This document shows positions 10,050 to 24,856 of a stretch of 38,466 nucleotides of DNA, piece after piece. This DNA comes from an uncultured Clostridia bacterium (GTDB taxonomy: Bacteria > Bacillota > Clostridia > Oscillospirales > Ruminococcaceae): positions 1-38,466 of the forward strand of contig CAMEKR010000005.1 of the NCBI GenBank assembly GCA_945921515.1. Reading direction: 5' to 3'. Each line of letters begins with the position of its first letter. Position 1 is the first letter of the stretch. Below the pieces are notes generated by a model. The model ran no database searches. It had not been told where the DNA came from and saw nothing but the letters and a program-made list of their open reading frames with translations. The translations under genes and the position numbers were made by a program.

Positions 10050-10553
10050 TTATACACTATTTGAGAGAAACGCAACAAAAAAATGCGGCTGATAGCCTTT
10101 TGAAAAGTGTGCACAAACGCTGAATAACGGTTTCCATATAGCTTCAACCGCAAATATTACCGCAGGCTGTATTACTTTAAGAATAAGCACGCAAGCCGCA
10201 CCCCATATTACCGAGAACTGCGGGCAGATATATCCTTTTATATTGAATTTTTTGTTGCTGTAATCCCACCATCTCCTGTGAAATATTTTGTCCAGAACAA
10301 ATCCTGTGATAAATTCAAGCAGGGTAGTAAGAACTGCCGATGCCACAAATAGCACTACCCACGATTCCTTGATCGGTGTGAGGCATATTATGACGATAAT
10401 TAGCCCGAATCCGTATATAGGACAGTACGCACCGTGAAGCATACCTCTGTTCACGAATTTTCCGTGTCTTATTGTAGCAAAAATAACCTCTGTGCACCAG
10501 CCTGCGACAGAGTATATCATAAAACAGTATAAAAGATCGTATATGTATTCCAT
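10050..10553 (-). CDS. Putative membrane protein of the CmpB-like 'ABC transporter permease' family (PF06541 type)
   Basis: A 167-residue integral membrane protein with about four to five hydrophobic segments. Recognisable family features are SVAGWCTEVIFATIRHGKFVNRG near the N-terminus, the central LLEFITGFVLDKIF, and WWDYSNKKFNIKGYICPQFS. The family is annotated as putative ABC permease, but it usually has no ATPase partner and its function is unknown. A second, diverged member lies at 24413-24856. It stands alone, convergent with the accessory block and divergent from nifS. Confidence 0.8.
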   Translation of the reverse strand: MEYIYDLLYCFMIYSVAGWCTEVIFATIRHGKFVNRGMLHGAYCPIYGFGLIIVIICLTPIKESWVVLFVASAVLTTLLEFITGFVLDKIFHRRWWDYSNKKFNIKGYICPQFSVIWGAACVLILKVIQPAVIFAVEAIWKPLFSVCAHFSKGYQPHFFVAFLSNSV

Positions 10554-12479: not shown

Positions 12480-12507
12480 GCCCTCCCGATTTGATAATCG
12501 GGAGGGC
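12480..12507. terminator. Rho-independent terminator after nifU
   Basis: A 12-bp perfect stem (GCCCTCCCGATT / AATCGGGAGGGC) with a TGAT loop, followed by GTTTT. The NERD gene ends only 4 bases beyond it on the other strand, so it may terminate both. Confidence 0.9.
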
Positions 12508-13636: not shown

Positions 13637-13665
13637 ATTATACCTCTTAGTATAATCTTTGTCAA
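13637..13665 (-). promoter_or_regulatory. Perfect consensus promoter of the NERD gene
   Basis: On the minus strand TTGACA (13660-13665) and TATAAT (13637-13642) are separated by exactly 17 bases. The -10 lies about 30 bases upstream of the start codon, so the leader is short. Confidence 0.85.
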
Positions 13666-13738: not shown

Positions 13739-15124
13739 TCATTCCCCGTACTTCTCTTTAAGCAAATCCTCTATCATAAAAGCAACTTTATATACATCTC
13801 CGCAGCCCAGCGTGATGATCATATCACCGCTTTCGGCATTATCTGCGACATAACGGGCTACCTCTTCAAAAGTAGGGAACCATCTGCATCCGGGAATCTT
13901 TGCCGCAAGGTCGGCAGAATAGACATTATAGGTATTCTTTTCTCTGCTGCCCATTATTTCTGTCAGAACAACATTGTCGGCTATCATAAGCGCATTTGCA
14001 AAGTCATCCATAAGAGTATAGGTTCTTGAATAGGTGAACGGCTGATGCACCGCCCATACACGCCTGAAGTCTTTCATCGACTTTGCCGTTTTAAGCGTTG
14101 CCGCAACTTCTGCCGGATGATGTGCATAATCGTCTACAACGGTTATGCCGCCTATCGTTGCAAGCCTTTCAAAGCGCCTTCCTGCGCCCCAGAAGGTTGA
14201 CAGTCCCTTGTTGATGTTTTCGGGAGTAACTCCCGTTGCAAGTGCGGCGGCACAGGCGGCTACCGCATTAAGAACATTATGTGCGCCGGGAACATGGATA
14301 GATATGCGTTCTATCTTTCTGCCGTTTTCCATAAGGTCAAAGTCGGTCTGAAAATCCGATATGCGCTCAATGTTTTCGGGATAGTATCTGTTCTTGTCTG
14401 TTTTACCGAAGGTGATTATCTGCTTGTCAAAGCCCGACGCCTTTACGGCTTTCAGCGTATTTTCATCATCGCCGTTTATTACAAGAATATCGGTAGTATT
14501 ATCGCAGAACTTAGTAAACGATGCTCTCAGATTATCCATCGTTTTGAAAAAGTCGAGGTGATCTGCGTCGATATTAAGTATTACCGAAATATTCGGAAAC
14601 AGGTGCAAGAATGTGTTGGAAAACTCACACGCTTCGCATACCATGACATCGCTTGTACCTGCTCTGCCGCTGCCGCCGATAGCTTTCAGCTTGCCGCCAA
14701 TCACCGTTGACAGATCGATATCCTGAGCGAGATACATATGCGTGAGCATTGACGATGTGGTGGTTTTTCCGTGAGTGCCCGAAACGCATACCGCCTTATT
14801 GTACCAGCTTGTAACAAGTCCGAGCAGTTCACAGCGCTCGACAGTCTTGACGCCGCTTGACTTTGCCGCAATAAGCTCCGGATTGTCGCTCATTATAGCG
14901 GCGGTATACACTATGAGGTCTGCGCCCTGAATGTTTTCCGCCCTCTGCCCCATATATACGGTTATGCCCATATTACGCACGGCTTTGAGCGTTTCGGTTT
15001 CGTTGTTGTCAGAGCCGGTAAGATAGTATCCTTTGCTGTGCAGTATCTGAGCCAGAGGATACATTCCGCTTCCGCCTATGCCTATAAAATGAATATGCTT
15101 CTTTCCGGTGAGGAAATCTTCCAT
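13739..15124 (-). CDS. murC: UDP-N-acetylmuramate--L-alanine ligase
   Basis: A 461-residue cytoplasmic Mur ligase that adds L-Ala to UDP-MurNAc using ATP, the first peptide step of peptidoglycan precursor synthesis. Visible: the Rossmann-like N-terminus HFIGIGGSGMYPLAQIL, ATP-binding VSGTHGKTTTSSML (about 119-132), metal and carbamate region EACEFSNTFLHL and NIDADHLDFF, and the C-terminal domain with WGAGRRFE and DDYAHHPAEV. Length is normal for MurC. It is the last gene of the leftward operon, 54 bases after the NUDIX gene, and is followed by the hairpin at 13670-13712. Confidence 0.96.
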   Translation of the reverse strand: MEDFLTGKKHIHFIGIGGSGMYPLAQILHSKGYYLTGSDNNETETLKAVRNMGITVYMGQRAENIQGADLIVYTAAIMSDNPELIAAKSSGVKTVERCELLGLVTSWYNKAVCVSGTHGKTTTSSMLTHMYLAQDIDLSTVIGGKLKAIGGSGRAGTSDVMVCEACEFSNTFLHLFPNISVILNIDADHLDFFKTMDNLRASFTKFCDNTTDILVINGDDENTLKAVKASGFDKQIITFGKTDKNRYYPENIERISDFQTDFDLMENGRKIERISIHVPGAHNVLNAVAACAAALATGVTPENINKGLSTFWGAGRRFERLATIGGITVVDDYAHHPAEVAATLKTAKSMKDFRRVWAVHQPFTYSRTYTLMDDFANALMIADNVVLTEIMGSREKNTYNVYSADLAAKIPGCRWFPTFEEVARYVADNAESGDMIITLGCGDVYKVAFMIEDLLKEKYGE

Positions 15125-15178: not shown

Positions 15179-15712
15179 TCAGCCTAATATCATCTTTGCC
15201 TTAAGCAGAGCAAGCTGAGTCTTTCCGTCTTCGATCTCGCCGTTCATAACCATTTCTACTGCTTTATCAAGCGGAATCTTTACTACTTCAAGAAATTCAT
15301 CATCGTCAAGATTCTGCTTGCCGCCTTCAAGACCGGTAGCAAGATACATATGCGTTATCTCCTGGCAGTATGCAGGCGTAGGTATCATATATCCCATATA
15401 TCTGAACTGCTTGCAGGTACAGCCGGTTTCTTCCTGAAGCTCTCTTCTGCCTGCCTTTGCGTGATCCTCTCCGGGATTGAGCTTGCCTGCGGGAATTTCC
15501 ATAAGTACCTTCTGAAAAGGATATCTGAACTGCCTTACAAAAAGCACTTGTCCGTCATCGGTAACAGGTACTACGCCGACTCCGCCGCTGTGTCTTATAA
15601 CATCACGGGATACTACCGCCCCGTTTTCAAGCTCTGCCTTGTCACAGCATACGGTAAGAATCTTACCCTCGTATTTTACCTCGCTGTCTACGGTTTTCTC
15701 AAATAAATGCAT
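15179..15712 (-). CDS. NUDIX hydrolase, ADP-ribose pyrophosphatase type
   Basis: A 177-residue protein starting at MHLFEKT with RBS AGAGGAAG 2-3 bases before ATG; the longer ORF in the track overlaps the YfhO gene and is rejected. The NUDIX box GKLNPGEDHAKAGRRELQEE (about residues 76-96) is complete, with the REL-QEETG metal-binding helix. The upstream PAGK and downstream GYMIPTPAYCQEI fit the ADP-ribose/NudF-like group that splits ADP-ribose into AMP and ribose 5-phosphate. Substrate is inferred from family, not proven. It starts 19 bases after YfhO and precedes murC. Confidence 0.9.
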   Translation of the reverse strand: MHLFEKTVDSEVKYEGKILTVCCDKAELENGAVVSRDVIRHSGGVGVVPVTDDGQVLFVRQFRYPFQKVLMEIPAGKLNPGEDHAKAGRRELQEETGCTCKQFRYMGYMIPTPAYCQEITHMYLATGLEGGKQNLDDDEFLEVVKIPLDKAVEMVMNGEIEDGKTQLALLKAKMILG

Positions 15713-15731
15713 ATCTTCCTCTTTTCTGCGA

Positions 15732-18281
15732 TTATTTCGCTTCGCCGCTTTGATTGTCCTGTTCGGTGCTTTGCGGCTCGCTGTTCTCTGCGTCATCGCT
15801 GTATGTTTCTTTATTTTCTAAAAGCAGTTTTTCAGTCTGCTTTTTGATTGTTTTAATATAAGCGTTGTGGTTATTTACCTTTTCAAGCTGTTCTTCTGCG
15901 TAGAGATGAACATTCGGATTAGGCTTATATCCGAAGACCTTCTTCAGCACGATATAATAGATTATAAGTATTACAGCCGCCGCTATCGTGCAGACTATTC
16001 CGGCTTTAAGTCCAGGCGTAACATAGCTGAATTCTATATTACATTCTCCCGACGGCACTTTAATGCCCATAACTCCACGGTTCACCTTTTCAATATCAAC
16101 AGGCTCGCCGTTAATTGCGGCGCTCCAGCCACTTTCCCAAGGAACCGTAAATACCACAAATCTGTCCTCGGTAAATGAAGAAGTAGCGGTAAATCCGTTT
16201 GCCGTAGGAGTAAATGTGTCAACGCAGGTCTTTGCAAGCTCTTCGGCGTCTTTTACAAATGTGTCGTAGCTGAAGCCGGAAGCATTATCGGGACTCAGCT
16301 CATCAATAATATCGCCGTATTTTTCTATCTGTTCATCGGTGAATACTACCGCACGCACAAGCATATTGTCACGGTGGCTCTTTGCAACCTTTTCGTATTC
16401 GTCATCCGTTACATAGAAGCTGTTGGAATAACCCATCGGTACGAATGCTTTGTTTTCAAAAATAGTGAAACCGTCCTGCTCGTCTATCTGAACAAAATTC
16501 TTCATATTATCAAGCAGAGTCTTGGTGTCTTTATATTCAAGCTTGTAGCTTTGGATTATGAGATATTTTGTAGAGTTTACCGATCTCATAGCATAATAGG
16601 TTCCGTCGGGATCGGTATTTACCGAACGGTTAAAGCCCATTCCTTCATAGTATTCAAAAGCAGAACCCGGCAGGATACTGTGGAAGCTTCTGAAACCGTA
16701 CATATCCCATAGCATATTTGCGTTGTTGGTAACGCCGTAAGTTTCGACTCTGTAGAAGCCGTCGCCCTCAAGCTCAATAGTTGCGTCAACAATGTTGTTG
16801 TAGTCACCGACCTTGGGACCGAGAGACCTGCCGTAGATAAGCGTATAGTACGAACAGCAAAGGCACGCAACCATAGTAAAGCAGTAAGCTTTGTGCAGGA
16901 ATCTGTTAGTGTTTGCTTTGTTCTTTCTGCGGACAAGGATATAGCATACAGCTACCGAAGCCACCGCAACCGCTACCGATATCCAGAACGGAATCTTCTC
17001 ATTGGGAAGCTGGAACAGCTCGGTTACCTTAACGGTCGATTCTTCTCCGGTGGCTATATCAAGAACATCCTTGCTTACTTCCGACGGAAGAACTCCGACG
17101 AGTGATATAAGAATGACCGCAAAGCCGCACCACTTCAGACCGTAACGGATGTCTATCTCCTTGCTTTCAAGCGCATAAGCGGTCATGAAGCAGCCGACCA
17201 GTATCGGCATATAGTACCATCTTGTATAATAGTTGTTGTTGAAAAGCACAAAGCTGGAGTTAAGCACAGGGATAAGCGCAAACAAAAGCATTATCGGCAT
17301 AAGCCACTTTGCCCAGTGCTTTTTCTTGTATCTGATAAACGAGATAACTCCCGCCATAGAGAACAACGGCAGATAAGCAGATACGCTCGACCATTTTGCA
17401 GAAGAGTCGGGGAAGAAGTTCTGCCTTGCAGGAACATCGGCAGGGAAGAACAGACTCTGGAAAATAAGTCCGTATCTCTGCGACGGGTTATGGAACACAA
17501 GATTCCATCCGTTTAATGTATTGCCTGATCTCGGAGTATCTATACAAGTGATTATCGCAGGAACAAACATTGCTCCTGCAAGCGCCACACCGATAACCGA
17601 TTCAAACGCAAGCGCCATAAAGGTTTTAAGCGTAACTTTGAACTTCGGATCGGTACAGCGGCAGGCAAAGTATATTACGAGGAAAACACATTCTCCGATA
17701 AAGAAGAAGTAGTTCACAAAGGCATTAAGCGCAACGGTCAGCGCAAAGAATACTCTTCTCTTGTTTATTACCGCTTCTTCAAGCGCAATAAGCATCAGCG
17801 GGAATACTACCATCGCCTCGTGGAAGTGGTTGAAGAAGACGTTATACATTGAAAATCCCGAAAAGGCATAGAGCAGACCGCCGATAAGCGCTGATACGGG
17901 CTTTTTTACAAAGCGTCTTATATATGCAAAAGCAAAGGTCGAACAGCACGACAGCTTAAGCACCATAAGCGGTGCCATCAGATATTTGGATACTTCGGCG
18001 GGAAAGGGCATTGTAAGCCAGAAGAACGGACTTCCGATGGTATAGAAAGAGTATGACCCTATAAAGTTAGCACCGAGATCTGTCTGCCAGTCCCACATAA
18101 AGCTGCCGCTTTTTATAGCCTGGTTGCACAGCGTATAGAAGGGTATCTGCTGAGCGTTGTAATCACCGTAGTAGATGAAATAGCCGCCGTCAATAAGGAC
18201 AAACGGCAGGAAAAGTATAACGCCCATTATAGCCGCCATTAAGAAAGCCTTGCGGTAATATTGCAATTCCGATTTGTACAT
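15732..18281 (-). CDS. YfhO-family membrane protein (first of two)
   Basis: An 849-residue protein with about a dozen membrane segments over the first 500 residues, a large extracytoplasmic part and one C-terminal membrane helix (GIVCTIAAAVILIIYYIVL), then a charged cytoplasmic tail. The pattern YGDYNAQQIPFY near residues 38-49, the GLLYAFSGFSMYN loop and the C-terminal VPWESGWSAAINGEPV are typical of YfhO, a GT-C-fold family. Bacillus YfhO is linked to sugar decoration of lipoteichoic acid; the same role here is inferred. It shares domain order and motifs with the YfhO protein at 28612-30948. It lies between the methyltransferase gene (33 bases upstream) and NUDIX (19 bases downstream). Confidence 0.88.
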   Translation of the reverse strand: MYKSELQYYRKAFLMAAIMGVILFLPFVLIDGGYFIYYGDYNAQQIPFYTLCNQAIKSGSFMWDWQTDLGANFIGSYSFYTIGSPFFWLTMPFPAEVSKYLMAPLMVLKLSCCSTFAFAYIRRFVKKPVSALIGGLLYAFSGFSMYNVFFNHFHEAMVVFPLMLIALEEAVINKRRVFFALTVALNAFVNYFFFIGECVFLVIYFACRCTDPKFKVTLKTFMALAFESVIGVALAGAMFVPAIITCIDTPRSGNTLNGWNLVFHNPSQRYGLIFQSLFFPADVPARQNFFPDSSAKWSSVSAYLPLFSMAGVISFIRYKKKHWAKWLMPIMLLFALIPVLNSSFVLFNNNYYTRWYYMPILVGCFMTAYALESKEIDIRYGLKWCGFAVILISLVGVLPSEVSKDVLDIATGEESTVKVTELFQLPNEKIPFWISVAVAVASVAVCYILVRRKNKANTNRFLHKAYCFTMVACLCCSYYTLIYGRSLGPKVGDYNNIVDATIELEGDGFYRVETYGVTNNANMLWDMYGFRSFHSILPGSAFEYYEGMGFNRSVNTDPDGTYYAMRSVNSTKYLIIQSYKLEYKDTKTLLDNMKNFVQIDEQDGFTIFENKAFVPMGYSNSFYVTDDEYEKVAKSHRDNMLVRAVVFTDEQIEKYGDIIDELSPDNASGFSYDTFVKDAEELAKTCVDTFTPTANGFTATSSFTEDRFVVFTVPWESGWSAAINGEPVDIEKVNRGVMGIKVPSGECNIEFSYVTPGLKAGIVCTIAAAVILIIYYIVLKKVFGYKPNPNVHLYAEEQLEKVNNHNAYIKTIKKQTEKLLLENKETYSDDAENSEPQSTEQDNQSGEAK

Positions 18282-18314: not shown

Positions 18315-19559
18315 TCAATAAAGAACGGCGCCGTATTTTTCAGCCATTGCGCTGAGTTTTTCGGGTTCTATCAATGAGTTGGAATCTATTATGGCTCTGC
18401 CCTGATATAGCATAAGCGCCATTTTGAGAGAGATCTCGTCGTCTGACAGAAACGCAACGGGCAGAGTAGCCATGTGCATATTTCTTCCGAAGTCTATAGC
18501 GTCATCGGGCGAGTTTATGCTTACTGTCAGCACATCGTAGCTTTGAGAACACATCTCGGCTATATCGTCTTCCATATACGGACCGCATTCGACAGCAGGA
18601 GAAAACTCCGTAGTGTCGGGATCGAGGAAAAACATCTGATTCTCCGTAGCCAAAGCAAGCGTGGTATCCTGCTTTTCTATGGCAGGGAGCTTGTCATAAT
18701 CAATTTCACCGAGCATATTCCGAAGTGCCGCAATATGCTCTTTTCCTGCACCGCAACAGCCGCCGACTATCCTTGCGCCGTTAGTCACCGACTTTTTTAC
18801 TGCACAGGCAAATTCTTCGGGAGAAACTAAAACTCTATCTCCGTCCTTTTCGTATACCGCACTCGGCTTTACTATAAGCGGAATTTTTGCATACGGAGCT
18901 ATCTCGGAAATAATATCGGGGCATAGATTTGCAGAAGTGCAGTTAAGACCGAATGCCGATATACCCATCTCCTGAAGCACAAGAAGTGCACACAGCACAT
19001 TTGTTCCTATATCGGTGTCTCCGTCTTCGTCTACCTTCATAGTAGCAATTATGGGCTTGTTCTCCTTTTTGCAGGCAAGCACAGCCGCACGCATATTCCA
19101 CAGCGTAGGCACGGTTTCTATAACAAACATATCGCAGTAAGGCGATAATGCCGATACCTGCTGTCTGTACACAGACATTATCTCGGTAAATGTATAGTCG
19201 CCGTACGGCTCTATGTAGAGTCCTGTAGATGACAGACAGCCTGCGATGAGCGCCTTATCGTGAAAGTTATCATAGGTTATTTTTGCGGCAGAAGCATTGA
19301 GCTGTTCTGTCATATCTTCACAGCCGAAAGCCTTCAGATTCTCACGGTTTGCGCCGTGAGTAGCAGTATACAGCACCTGTGCGCCGCTGTCTGTAAAGCC
19401 CTGCTGGAGCTTTATCAGCGCATCGGGATGCAGGCAGACAAACTGCGCCGCAGATACCGAGCGGTCATAGCCGTATGCAAAAAGTCCGGTGCCGGTACCG
19501 CCGTCAAGCAGTATCGGCAAAGGTATAGGTATTTCCTGACTGACGGGAATACTGTCCAT
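18315..19559 (-). CDS. Homocysteine S-methyltransferase-family protein with C-terminal extension
   Basis: A 414-residue protein. Residues about 15-290 form the zinc-dependent homocysteine methyltransferase barrel: LLDGGTGTGL, GLNCTSANLCPD (first zinc Cys) and GGCCGAGKEHIAAL (the Cys pair). This domain transfers a methyl group to homocysteine to make methionine, as in the N-terminal part of MetH. The last 110 residues do not belong to this domain; ALMLYQGRAIIDSNSL resembles the end of a pterin-binding domain but is too short to be a whole one. No cobalamin-binding domain follows, so this is at most a partial MetH. Operon position between argS and YfhO gives no metabolic clue. Confidence 0.82.
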   Translation of the reverse strand: MDSIPVSQEIPIPLPILLDGGTGTGLFAYGYDRSVSAAQFVCLHPDALIKLQQGFTDSGAQVLYTATHGANRENLKAFGCEDMTEQLNASAAKITYDNFHDKALIAGCLSSTGLYIEPYGDYTFTEIMSVYRQQVSALSPYCDMFVIETVPTLWNMRAAVLACKKENKPIIATMKVDEDGDTDIGTNVLCALLVLQEMGISAFGLNCTSANLCPDIISEIAPYAKIPLIVKPSAVYEKDGDRVLVSPEEFACAVKKSVTNGARIVGGCCGAGKEHIAALRNMLGEIDYDKLPAIEKQDTTLALATENQMFFLDPDTTEFSPAVECGPYMEDDIAEMCSQSYDVLTVSINSPDDAIDFGRNMHMATLPVAFLSDDEISLKMALMLYQGRAIIDSNSLIEPEKLSAMAEKYGAVLY

Positions 19560-19577: not shown

Positions 19578-21329
19578 TTACATTTTTTCGGGTGCGTCGA
19601 CCTTGAGCAGATCGAGCAGATTCTTGAACACGGTTTTTGTGGCAACACAGAGCGAAAGCCTTGACTGAAGCGTGTTGTCTTCTTCGCCCTTTATCTTGCA
19701 GTTGTCGTAGAACTTGTGGAACAGCTGTGCAAGGTCGCACAGATATTTAGTGATCTTTGAGGGATTATAGTCCTTTGCCGCTTCGTTTATGCAGTCGGGC
19801 AGTGCGGCAATATGACGGATAAGCGCAAGCTCTGCAGGATGTGAGTAGTTAAGCTCACTTACCGGTATGTTCCTGTATCCTGTTCCTTCTTCTTCCATTC
19901 TGCGAATAATACTGCATATTCTTGCGTGTGCATACTGAACATAGAATACGGGGTTGCTTGAGCTTTCTTCTATAGCAAGCTCAAGGTCGAACTCAAGATG
20001 AGTGTTGGGATCCCTCAGGTTGAAGAAGAATCTTGCGGCGTCTATCGGTACTTCGTCAAGCAGAGTAGATAGCGTTATTGCCTTACCTGAACGCTTTGAC
20101 AGCTTTACGGTCTCGCCGTTTCTCACCAGCATTACCATTTGCATAATAACAATATCGAGCTTGTTTGCGTCAACGCCGAGTGCTGTCAGCGCCGCCTTCA
20201 TTCTTGCTATATATCCGTGGTGGTCTGCGCCGAGTATATCCACAGCCTTGTCAAAGCCTCTTGTGACGAGCTTGTTGTAGTGATATGCTATATCCGGCAC
20301 AAAGTAGGTGGGGATGCCGTTTGCACGGACAAGCACTCTGTCCTGATCGTCACCGAAGTCCGATGCCTTGAACCATATAGCTCCGTCCTTTTCGTAGGTC
20401 TGACCTTTTTCGGTGAGCATATCCACTATCTGCTTTACCGCACCGTTAGCGTGCAGGGTGCTTTCTCTGAACCATGTATCATATACTATGCGGTATTTCT
20501 TGAGGTCTCTTTCAAGCCCGTCGATATTAAGCGGAAGAGCATACTCTACAAGAGCAGACTTTCTTGTTTCTTCGTCTGCGTCTGCAAAGCTGTCTTTGTG
20601 CATCTTATAGAAATTATATGCGTGCTCTATTATATCTACGCCTTTGTAAACATCCTCGGGCATAGGGAAATGCTCTTCATCGGCAAAAATGCCTGCACAC
20701 ACATCATCGCCGAATGAAGCGATTATATCGGCATTATTCTTGTCTGCTATCTGTAAATATCTTATCGACAGCGATTTGCCGAACTTTTCTATCTGGTTGC
20801 CTGCGTCGTTTACATAGAACTCACGCTCGACTTCATAGCCTGCGTACTGCAGTACCGAAGATAAGCTGTCGCCCAGAGCGCCGCCTCTTGCGTTACCTAT
20901 ATGCATAGGTCCGGTGGGATTTGCGGAAACGAACTCAACGAGAACACGCTTGCCTTTGCCAAGCTCGGTCTTGCCGTAGTCGCTGCCGCTGCTTATTACT
21001 TCTCCTACCGTTTCATTAAACCAAGCAGGGCTTATGAAGAAATTAAGAAATCCGGGGCCTGCGACTTCTATCTTTTCAAATGCCGTTCCGTCTAAGATTG
21101 CGGCTTCGGCTATCATCTGACCTATTGCTCTCGGATTTGATTTCAGCGCCTTTGCGCTTGCCATTGCGGCATTGCAGGAGAAATCTCCGTGCGATACGTC
21201 TGCAGGGCGCTCAACATTGAAAGCAGGAAGCGGAACAGCTTCTATCTTTCCCTCTGCCACCAGTCTGCCCAGCGCATTCATTACCGTTTCTTTTACCTGC
21301 TGTTTAGCAAGCTCTATCATATTAGTCAT
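19578..21329 (-). CDS. argS: Arginyl-tRNA synthetase
   Basis: A 583-residue class I synthetase that charges tRNA-Arg. It shows the HIGH-type motif in SANPTGPMHIGNARGGALGD (about 119-138), the KMSKS-like loop VKLSKRSGKAITL (about 390), an N-terminal Add1-like domain and a C-terminal DALR-type anticodon domain (YVQYAHARICSIIRR onward). Length is normal. Its ATG overlaps the stop of the DUF1934 gene by one base (TGATG), indicating translational coupling, and the methyltransferase gene starts 18 bases after it. Confidence 0.96.
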   Translation of the reverse strand: MTNMIELAKQQVKETVMNALGRLVAEGKIEAVPLPAFNVERPADVSHGDFSCNAAMASAKALKSNPRAIGQMIAEAAILDGTAFEKIEVAGPGFLNFFISPAWFNETVGEVISSGSDYGKTELGKGKRVLVEFVSANPTGPMHIGNARGGALGDSLSSVLQYAGYEVEREFYVNDAGNQIEKFGKSLSIRYLQIADKNNADIIASFGDDVCAGIFADEEHFPMPEDVYKGVDIIEHAYNFYKMHKDSFADADEETRKSALVEYALPLNIDGLERDLKKYRIVYDTWFRESTLHANGAVKQIVDMLTEKGQTYEKDGAIWFKASDFGDDQDRVLVRANGIPTYFVPDIAYHYNKLVTRGFDKAVDILGADHHGYIARMKAALTALGVDANKLDIVIMQMVMLVRNGETVKLSKRSGKAITLSTLLDEVPIDAARFFFNLRDPNTHLEFDLELAIEESSSNPVFYVQYAHARICSIIRRMEEEGTGYRNIPVSELNYSHPAELALIRHIAALPDCINEAAKDYNPSKITKYLCDLAQLFHKFYDNCKIKGEEDNTLQSRLSLCVATKTVFKNLLDLLKVDAPEKM

Positions 21330-21751
21330 CAGTTACACTCCTTAACATTTATATGCATTTCATTTTCGGACATATAGCTTGAATTGATATCAAGCGTATA
21401 TCTGAGATACACATCTCCGCCCGTGCTTTTAAGCTCGTTTTTTATCTCGTCGGTGCATACGCCTATCATAAAATCACCGAACTCCGTGCCGTAATGGCAG
21501 TGGTGCTTTTTGCCCTTTTCTATGAAAAGCGAGCTTATCACCTTTCCGCTTCTTGTCATGGTCACCATATTGTCCGATACTTCAAGCGTTACCGAGCTTC
21601 CTTCAAAGCCGGTCGCCTCGCTCTCGTCATAATGAAGCCTGAAGCCTCCGTCAAACTGCTCCATTGCGCCAAAGGTGAAAAGCTCGGTGGTATCCTTTTC
21701 TTCATCGACCGTCTGCGTGCTCTTTATTGTTATACATACATTCTTTTTCAT
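21329..21751 (-). CDS. DUF1934-family protein (YwiB-like)
   Basis: A 140-residue protein rich in beta strands. It matches the DUF1934 family in size and in the pattern MxKNVxITIKSTQTVDEEKD at the start and KHHCHYGTEFGDFMIGV in the middle. The family has a lipocalin-like barrel fold and unknown function. A gene of this family directly before argS is a recurring arrangement in Firmicutes, including B. subtilis ywiB. No signal peptide, so it is probably cytoplasmic. Confidence 0.85.
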   Translation of the reverse strand: MKKNVCITIKSTQTVDEEKDTTELFTFGAMEQFDGGFRLHYDESEATGFEGSSVTLEVSDNMVTMTRSGKVISSLFIEKGKKHHCHYGTEFGDFMIGVCTDEIKNELKSTGGDVYLRYTLDINSSYMSENEMHINVKECN

Positions 21752-21772: not shown

Positions 21773-22837
21773 TCAGTCGAGTTCCACAACAGAGCCGATA
21801 AGCAGACGGATCATATCTTCATAAGTGAAGCCGTTGTCCGTAACAAGCCGTGTGAATATACTCTGCCTGTCAAGTCCCGGTATGCTTCTTACTCGTCTGA
21901 CATACACCCTGCCGTCATTACCGAGTACCATATCGACTCTTGCAAAGCATTTGCAGGAGAGTGCGGAGAATGCGGCTCTTGCCGTCTGTCTTATGCTGTC
22001 AAGCTCGGAGCCGTCGAGCTGAGCCGGTACGACAAGCTCGGAGGTCGAAGCTATATTTGCACTGCGCTTATCTGTTTCGTCGCTCAGCTTTACAAGCTCG
22101 CCGACTGTGACTTCTTCATCGTGAAGCTTCTTTTCGAGTACGGCACAGGTTATCTCTCTGCCGCTGAGTGCGCTCTCTGCAATTATATACGGATGGTGCG
22201 AAAAGCTTGCCTTTATTGCTTCTTCAAGCTCGCTTTCGTTATCGGCTCTGCAGGCACCCACAGATGCGGAACAGCTCGTAGGAGCGGTATATATCGGGAA
22301 AGCCAGCTTGTCTGTTATCTTCTTTACAGCGGAATTTATATCGTTTATTTCGCTTCTGTGAAGTGTAACATTGTCAATAACATCAAGTCCGCTGTCACAG
22401 AGGATAAGATTCATTATCCGTCTGTCGTTGGACAGCGCCGCCGCCTGAAAATCATTTCCGATTATCGGCAGACCGGCAAGCTTGCACAGTCCCTGCACTC
22501 TTCCGTCTTCTCCGTATTTACCGTGAAGAACGGGGAAAACTGCGTCTACTCTGTATATCGTGCTTTCTCCGTCGGAAATAATCTTGATTACACCCTTGTT
22601 TGTCATATCGGGGCTTATCACGCATGAACAGCAGTCGCTGTCCTGCTCCCAGCTTCCGTCCTTGATATTTTCATAGCTGCCCGGATAAAAAAGCCATCTG
22701 CCTGCTCTGGTTATGCCTATCGCAAGCGGCTCTATCTCCTTTGGCATTGCGCTGAGTACGCTGTATGCAGTATGAAGCGACGCCGCATGATCTGCCGACG
22801 CACCGCCGAACAGTACGGCTATTCGTTTTTTCGCCAT
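21773..22837 (-). CDS. D-alanine--D-alanine ligase-like ATP-grasp protein, probably catalytically altered
   Basis: A 354-residue protein starting at MAKKRIAVLF (RBS GAGG); the track's longer start is rejected. The Ddl layout is clear: FGGASADHAASL (about 10-21), HGKYGEDGRVQGLCKLAG, ALSNDRRIMN (normally ALSMDK), and ARVDMVLGNDGRVYV. However, the metal-binding segment that in E. coli DdlB reads LEANTSPG reads RRVRSIPG here, so the ligands equivalent to Glu270 and Asn272 are both Arg (about 315 and 317); the Asp of RVD is kept. ATP-dependent ligation is therefore doubtful. It may be a pseudoenzyme, a regulator, or a paralogue with another role; a standard ddl would be expected elsewhere in the genome. 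It is the first gene of the leftward operon. Confidence 0.82.
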   Translation of the reverse strand: MAKKRIAVLFGGASADHAASLHTAYSVLSAMPKEIEPLAIGITRAGRWLFYPGSYENIKDGSWEQDSDCCSCVISPDMTNKGVIKIISDGESTIYRVDAVFPVLHGKYGEDGRVQGLCKLAGLPIIGNDFQAAALSNDRRIMNLILCDSGLDVIDNVTLHRSEINDINSAVKKITDKLAFPIYTAPTSCSASVGACRADNESELEEAIKASFSHHPYIIAESALSGREITCAVLEKKLHDEEVTVGELVKLSDETDKRSANIASTSELVVPAQLDGSELDSIRQTARAAFSALSCKCFARVDMVLGNDGRVYVRRVRSIPGLDRQSIFTRLVTDNGFTYEDMIRLLIGSVVELD

Positions 22838-22912: not shown

Positions 22913-23056
22913 GGGTAAAAAGGGAAATTATATATAAATAGTATCAGGCACTTACCTTCGCCTCATTTATCGTGGGTTACAACGGTAAGGATATTGCAAA
23001 GTAAAAGCATCGATTGTGCAAAATAATATAGAACAGTCGAAAAATGTTAAAATGTA
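22913..23056. other. Intergenic stretch between divergent promoters
   Basis: Part of a 362-base gap between the Ddl-like gene and the lipoprotein gene. Besides the two promoters listed separately I see no ORF, RNA gene, riboswitch-like fold or obvious repeat. Confidence 0.5.
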
Positions 23057-23085
23057 TTGACAAATAAAAAAAACTTTGATATAAT
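23057..23085 (+). promoter_or_regulatory. Perfect consensus promoter of the lipoprotein gene
   Basis: TTGACA at 23057-23062 and TATAAT at 23080-23085, 17-base spacer. The leader to the ATG at 23200 is about 110 bases, long enough to hold regulation, but no clear fold was recognised. Confidence 0.85.
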
Positions 23086-23199
23086 TATAAAAAACGAACT
23101 ACTTTATTTTTCAAAACATCTGCAATATATTATCACCGTATAAAAGCTCTTTTAAAGGGGCTGTTTATAATTTTTAACAAGTTGAAAGGAGCTAATTCT

Positions 23200-24412: not shown

Positions 24413-24856
24413 TCATGCTTGCTTTGCGCCTTTTGTGGTGATACGGTAGCGTGGCTTTTTCTCACCGAACATTTTCCATCTCAGTATGTCGTCCGTCACG
24501 ATCCCGATAAGAGATAAGAAGAACCATCCCACCGTGAATACGGGGCATATCTGCCCTAAGATATTGAACGGCAGCCTTTCGTAATTCCATACATTCCAGC
24601 CAAGCCCGATGTTTACTATGCATCCGCAGATAAATTCAAGCACGGTTATTATCACGGCGGATATCAGCATCTGGACAGGCAGGGAGTAATCTTTGCAGGA
24701 GTTGATACCTCCCACCAGCACAAAGCATATCCCTCCTAAAATGAACATACTCCAATGGCTGTTTGCTCTGAACAGAAGCTCAACTATCGTATAAGCACAG
24801 CCTCCGAAGCAAAACAGCATGAATAATTTCATAGGTACGCAGATTTCGGCTTTCAT
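24413..24856 (-). CDS. CmpB-like putative membrane permease (second copy, diverged)
   Basis: A 147-residue membrane protein with four to five hydrophobic segments. It shares the PF06541-type core with the protein at 10050-10553: VLEFICGCIVNI, then WNVWNYERLPFNILGQICPVF and a WFFLS segment. Function of the family is unknown, and no ATPase or binding-protein gene is nearby. The start MKAEICV follows AAGGTGAG; an internal Met at residue 9 is a possible alternative. It faces the lipoprotein terminator. Confidence 0.78.
   Translation of the reverse strand: MKAEICVPMKLFMLFCFGGCAYTIVELLFRANSHWSMFILGGICFVLVGGINSCKDYSLPVQMLISAVIITVLEFICGCIVNIGLGWNVWNYERLPFNILGQICPVFTVGWFFLSLIGIVTDDILRWKMFGEKKPRYRITTKGAKQA

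Follow-up and report, generated by a model that had tools for sequence, protein, structure and literature searches.

The gene named ddlX here raises the question of how a protein with the complete fold of a D-alanine-D-alanine ligase (Ddl), a drug target and textbook ATP-grasp enzyme, comes to be kept by a bacterium when its catalytic site appears to have been dismantled. It lies in a 38,466-nucleotide stretch of DNA from an uncultured Clostridia bacterium of the family Ruminococcaceae (hereafter, the window), with its ATG at 22837 and the end of its stop codon at 21773; the initially annotated coordinates are correct. The cluster that it heads comprises the following features.

21773..22837, minus strand: ddlX, putative Ddl-fold pseudo-ligase (354 aa) that opens the cluster
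23023..23050, minus strand: promoter-like site TTAACA-16-TATTAT upstream of ddlX, a consensus match only
21329..21751, minus strand: DUF1934 (PF09148) gene, conserved neighbour
19578..21329, minus strand: argS, conserved neighbour
18315..19559, minus strand: homocysteine S-methyltransferase domain gene
15732..18281, minus strand: YfhO membrane protein gene
15179..15796, minus strand: NUDIX-like hydrolase gene, named from reading the sequence; its start as called overlaps yfhO
13739..15124, minus strand: murC, downstream and conserved within the genus
12480..12507, both strands: terminator-like hairpin with a 12-bp stem, after the NERD-HRDC gene

The initial annotation placed the end of this operon at murC, which is roughly right, although a NERD-HRDC gene lies past murC on the same strand and is preceded by a perfect (12/12) promoter-like site of its own (13637-13665, minus strand). 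That ddlX clusters with murC within the genus would fit a role linked to the cell wall but does not show one. A second perfect 12/12 promoter-like site (23057-23085, plus strand) precedes a divergent 389-aa gene at 23182, for which a Pfam search returned no family match, and two ABC_trans_CmpB (PF06541) genes are present in the window (10050-10553 and 24413-24856, both on the minus strand).

Fold and catalytic residues of ddlX

Both Pfam domains of the family, Dala_Dala_lig_N and Dala_Dala_lig_C, were found above cut-off in ddlX, and its AlphaFold model is a confident, complete Ddl fold (pLDDT 92.3, pTM 0.90), in agreement with the initial view that the fold is intact. The closest solved structure is VanG (4fu0), both in a Foldseek search (TM 0.89) and by sequence (5e-59). 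On the NCBIfam Ddl subfamily profiles NF002528 (cut-off 262 bits) and TIGR01205 (cut-off 245.65 bits), ddlX fell below the thresholds with 254.1 and 198.4 bits, respectively, and an active orthologue (L187) scored 450.8 and 368.5 bits; because L160, a pseudoenzyme of the second inactivated clade described below, passes NF002528 with 268.2 bits, that cut-off alone is not decisive for activity. The identification of ddlX as a VanG-type resistance ligase was ruled out by its score against the NCBIfam VanG profile (272 bits, for a cut-off of 495) and by its motif. VanG-like ligases, mostly with the motif FNEVNTIPG, are encoded in many genomes of the family, members of the genus included (L067-L076, L222, L223, L310, L322, L323, L328-L331, L349, L352-L354).

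The catalytic segments of ddlX, all on the minus strand, were assigned from alignments as follows.

21875..21898, minus strand: RRVRSIPG (residues 314-321); metal ligands lost, E270 to R315 and N272 to R317
21932..21940, minus strand: R300-V-D302, equivalents of R255 and D257, retained
22055..22060, minus strand: A260-N261, equivalents of omega-loop K215 and Y216, lost
22256..22288, minus strand: TAPTSCSASVG (residues 184-194), opposite VKPxxxGSSVG; K144 to A185, S150 to A191
22421..22438, minus strand: ALSNDR (residues 134-139), K97 to R139
22790..22792, minus strand: D16, equivalent of E15

Three of the Ddl residues, D257, E270 and N272, hold the two magnesium ions of the enzyme. The segment RRVRSIPG stands opposite NEVNTIPG of VanG (4fu0) and NEINTLPG of DdlA (3i12) in the HMMER alignment, and opposite the DdlB-type LEANTLPG of one related species in BLASTP; the alignments thus agree with the first reading of this locus in placing Arg at the positions of both Glu270 and Asn272, with D257 still present and no substitute acidic residue for either ligand seen in the aligned segment. 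That reading had also pointed to ALSNDR in place of ALSMDK, and the alignment, with the usual C/SMDK opposite, identifies this change as K97R. The loss is wider than was recognized there: at 13 catalytic positions where the reference reads E H K K S S E K Y R D E N, ddlX reads D H R A A S E A N R D R R, so that eight are altered (E15D, K97R, K144A, S150A, K215A, Y216N, E270R and N272R) and five are retained (H63, S151, E180, R255 and D257). The structure-guided alignment with Ddl accordingly favours a pseudoenzyme. Three independent alignments, together with a loss common to the entire orthologous clade (at least 57 sequences), rule out a chance motif, a sequencing error or a misalignment.

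From these residues, ddlX is predicted to be unable to make D-Ala-D-Ala; binding of nucleotide or D-Ala may persist, given that D257, R255, E180 and H63 are retained. The same four residues and the intact fold could also be taken to mean that ddlX is a weak but real ligase that backs up the main enzyme, but the loss of both E270 and N272 should, by the ATP-grasp mechanism, abolish Mg-ATP catalysis. The occurrence of a second ligase bears on this possibility as well.

The second ligase and conservation of the loss in the genus

The genome, which is 98.9% complete, encodes one other clear Ddl besides ddlX. This canonical ddl (G000:C73:6489-7679) lies close downstream of a MurF-like gene, has all motifs intact and exceeds both NCBIfam cut-offs (324.9 bits for NF002528 and 279.6 bits for TIGR01205); its presence, one of the checks proposed with the initial annotation, likewise favours a pseudoenzyme. 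Most genomes in the comparison are MAGs, and in one of them, the genus member G033 (4.5 Mb, 98% complete), ddlX was present and no canonical Ddl was detected. This genome would favour a weak ligase; however, the missing gene probably reflects an assembly gap, because two other members of the genus (G030 and G060) carry both ddlX and the canonical Ddl.

A full-length or near-full-length ddlX orthologue, 37-83% identical to ddlX, was found in at least 57 of the 71 genomes of the genus, which may be that of [Eubacterium] siraeum, and fragments in four further ones; in the tree the orthologues form a monophyletic clade (support 100/100). Residues were counted in 56 aligned orthologues. At E15, the murF-linked Ddl and every active orthologue have Glu, and all of these sequences have Asp (56/56); N272 is lost in 55, E270 is replaced by Arg or Lys in 50, K215 is lost in 50, D257 in 36 and K144 in 31. 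On the other hand, E180 is retained in 55 of the sequences and S151 in 52, and the K97 position is Lys or Arg in 54. The RRVR string itself is only one variant among several (RKAG, TKVS, LRRIS and CCKVS were also found), so the proposed check of whether homologues share it came out positive, in favour of a pseudoenzyme, for the loss and not for the exact letters: judged from these alignments, it is the loss that is conserved rather than the motif. In three genomes (G024, G044 and G045), ddlX is cleanly absent and the DUF1934-argS pair is still there; because of such clean absences in several species, ddlX is not essential and can be dispensed with at the genus level.

These counts also bear on the suggestion, made in the initial annotation, that the protein may have a changed chemistry. 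Such an enzyme would still draw on ATP or some other donor, but its substrate or the arrangement of its metals would differ. The charge-reversed residue at E270 is itself conserved, and the near-universal E180 and basic residue at K97 would allow phosphate or nucleotide binding. Nevertheless, with the metal ligands, the omega loop and an ATP lysine gone, K144 and D257 frequently missing among the relatives, and the C-terminal domain being the least constrained part of the protein (see below), a new chemistry is quite unlikely.

Origin of ddlX and recurrence of inactivation

The equivalent place in sister genera holds an intact DdlA-type ligase, in the order ddl-(murI)-DUF1934-argS. Because this synteny is shared, ddlX is the positional orthologue of the ordinary active ligase of the family. 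The initial description of ddlX as a paralogue is therefore qualified: its location makes it the counterpart of the ordinary ligase, and it is the working enzyme of the genome that belongs to a type of narrower distribution, the murF-linked one. Relatives with an active ddl have murI between that gene and DUF1934, and in the ddlX genome the only match to the glutamate racemase family is a fragment with a stop (G000:C34:8033-8209, L393); the missing intact murI reflects either an assembly gap or another source of D-Glu.

A census of 118 other genera scored the argS-linked Ddl orthologue as intact, inactivated or absent. It was intact in 102 genera, 101 of which have no further non-Van Ddl and one of which does; inactivated in eight, each with a second Ddl that is intact; and missing from eight, seven of which have another non-Van Ddl. 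No genus among the 118 has an inactivated copy without a backup Ddl. The association of inactivation with a backup (Fisher p ~2e-11) is descriptive, as the genera are not phylogenetically independent. That inactivated copies are found only beside an intact second Ddl is a further argument against residual ligase activity in ddlX, which we regard as very improbable.

Inactivated argS-linked copies beside an intact second Ddl, with varied lesions, are represented by L159-L167, L210-L216, L299, L303 and L173. The first of these groups, from rumen and gut MAGs of other Oscillospiraceae, forms a second inactivated clade, in which the omega loop and R255 are lost and E270 is kept, with dN/dS of 0.04-0.29. 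A careful tree nested this clade among intact rows, apart from the ddlX clade, and a larger quick tree grouped some of the inactivated rows and gave a minimum of three changes; the grouping is probably a long-branch effect. A single family-wide loss was rejected, as the careful tree separates the two inactivated clades, although the quick tree groups some rows. Because the lesions differ between lineages, these sequences suggest that inactivation recurred in separate lineages; the trees support at least a few events, and no exact number is claimed.

Shift of constraint and possible role

For close pairs, dN/dS of ddlX is 0.02-0.19, compared with 0.01-0.11 for the murF-linked active ligase, and no internal stops were found in the ddlX orthologues; on this basis, the gene is kept by purifying selection. 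The ddlX clade was compared with approximately 100 active orthologues at matched mean pairwise identity (0.50 versus 0.51). Conservation of the N-terminal domain is higher in the ddlX clade than in the active orthologues (0.66 versus 0.52), and that of the C-terminal, catalytic domain is lower (0.37 versus 0.53), indicating that constraint has shifted from the C- to the N-terminal domain rather than decayed uniformly. Residues newly invariant or near-invariant in the clade are D16, C69, C70, R161, S190, K209, H214 and H215, and C189 is also among those newly conserved; S190 is invariant and is Gly in all active orthologues. Two adjacent pairs were mapped in the window from this comparison.

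22628..22633, minus strand: C69-C70, newly near-invariant
22193..22198, minus strand: H214-H215, newly invariant or near-invariant

It is conceivable that ddlX is a decaying relic, functionless since the second Ddl took over and drifting to loss, as might be read from its clean losses in the genus, from the seven other genera that have only the second Ddl and from members such as L215 and L216 that look eroded. The low dN/dS values, the orthologues free of internal stops, the N-terminal domain better conserved than in the active enzymes and the similar constraint on the second inactivated clade make this explanation unlikely. Instead, ddlX is in all likelihood a conserved pseudoenzyme, derived from a vertically inherited argS-linked DdlA-type ligase and left after functional replacement, in which the catalytic duty would have passed to a second Ddl, the murF-linked one in this genus.

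The initial annotation proposed a pseudoenzyme with a regulatory or scaffolding role. Its first part agrees with the present analysis, and selection together with the shift of constraint argues for some non-catalytic role; a specifically regulatory or scaffolding one would be a further step. As a tentative proposal, ddlX might act by binding through its N-terminal domain: it could be a non-catalytic companion of the active Ddl or of some other enzyme acting on wall precursors, or it could sense a small ligand. The Arg or Lys at the E270 position may occupy the metal-ion site and replace the cation for phosphate binding. It is likewise possible, if somewhat doubtful, that the argS-linked Ddl ancestrally had a further function in wall synthesis that needs no catalysis, and that it was kept repeatedly, in several lineages and with different lesions, as a dead partner or sensor once another ligase relieved it of catalysis. 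A pseudo-Ddl found across a gut genus, and recurring only with a second ligase, points to an unrecognized non-catalytic role of Ddl, and the label "D-alanine-D-alanine ligase" would be wrong for many proteins in these genomes. A search of literature available without subscription found no Ddl-derived pseudoenzyme and nothing relevant to the function of DUF1934.

Among known systems, the argS-linked DdlA-type ligases of the family share the fold and genomic position of ddlX (approximately 34-37% identity for the members aligned), but all 13 of their catalytic positions are intact, whereas eight are changed in ddlX, and their clusters include murI, which that of ddlX does not. NEVNTIPG, an SSFG loop and an omega loop are present in VanG (4fu0) and lacking in ddlX, next to which no genes of a van cluster were seen. 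The genome's own murF-linked Ddl belongs to the same superfamily (29% identity) and, unlike ddlX, has every catalytic motif intact. The L159-L167 clade resembles ddlX in its location beside DUF1934 and argS, in the intact second Ddl of its genomes and in being under purifying selection, but differs in keeping E270 and, in most members, N272 while losing R255 and the omega loop; most of its members also show changes at H63 and in the GSSVG loop. Pseudokinases and other pseudoenzymes have lost their metal ligands and retained both the fold and selection, a combination that recurs in ddlX.
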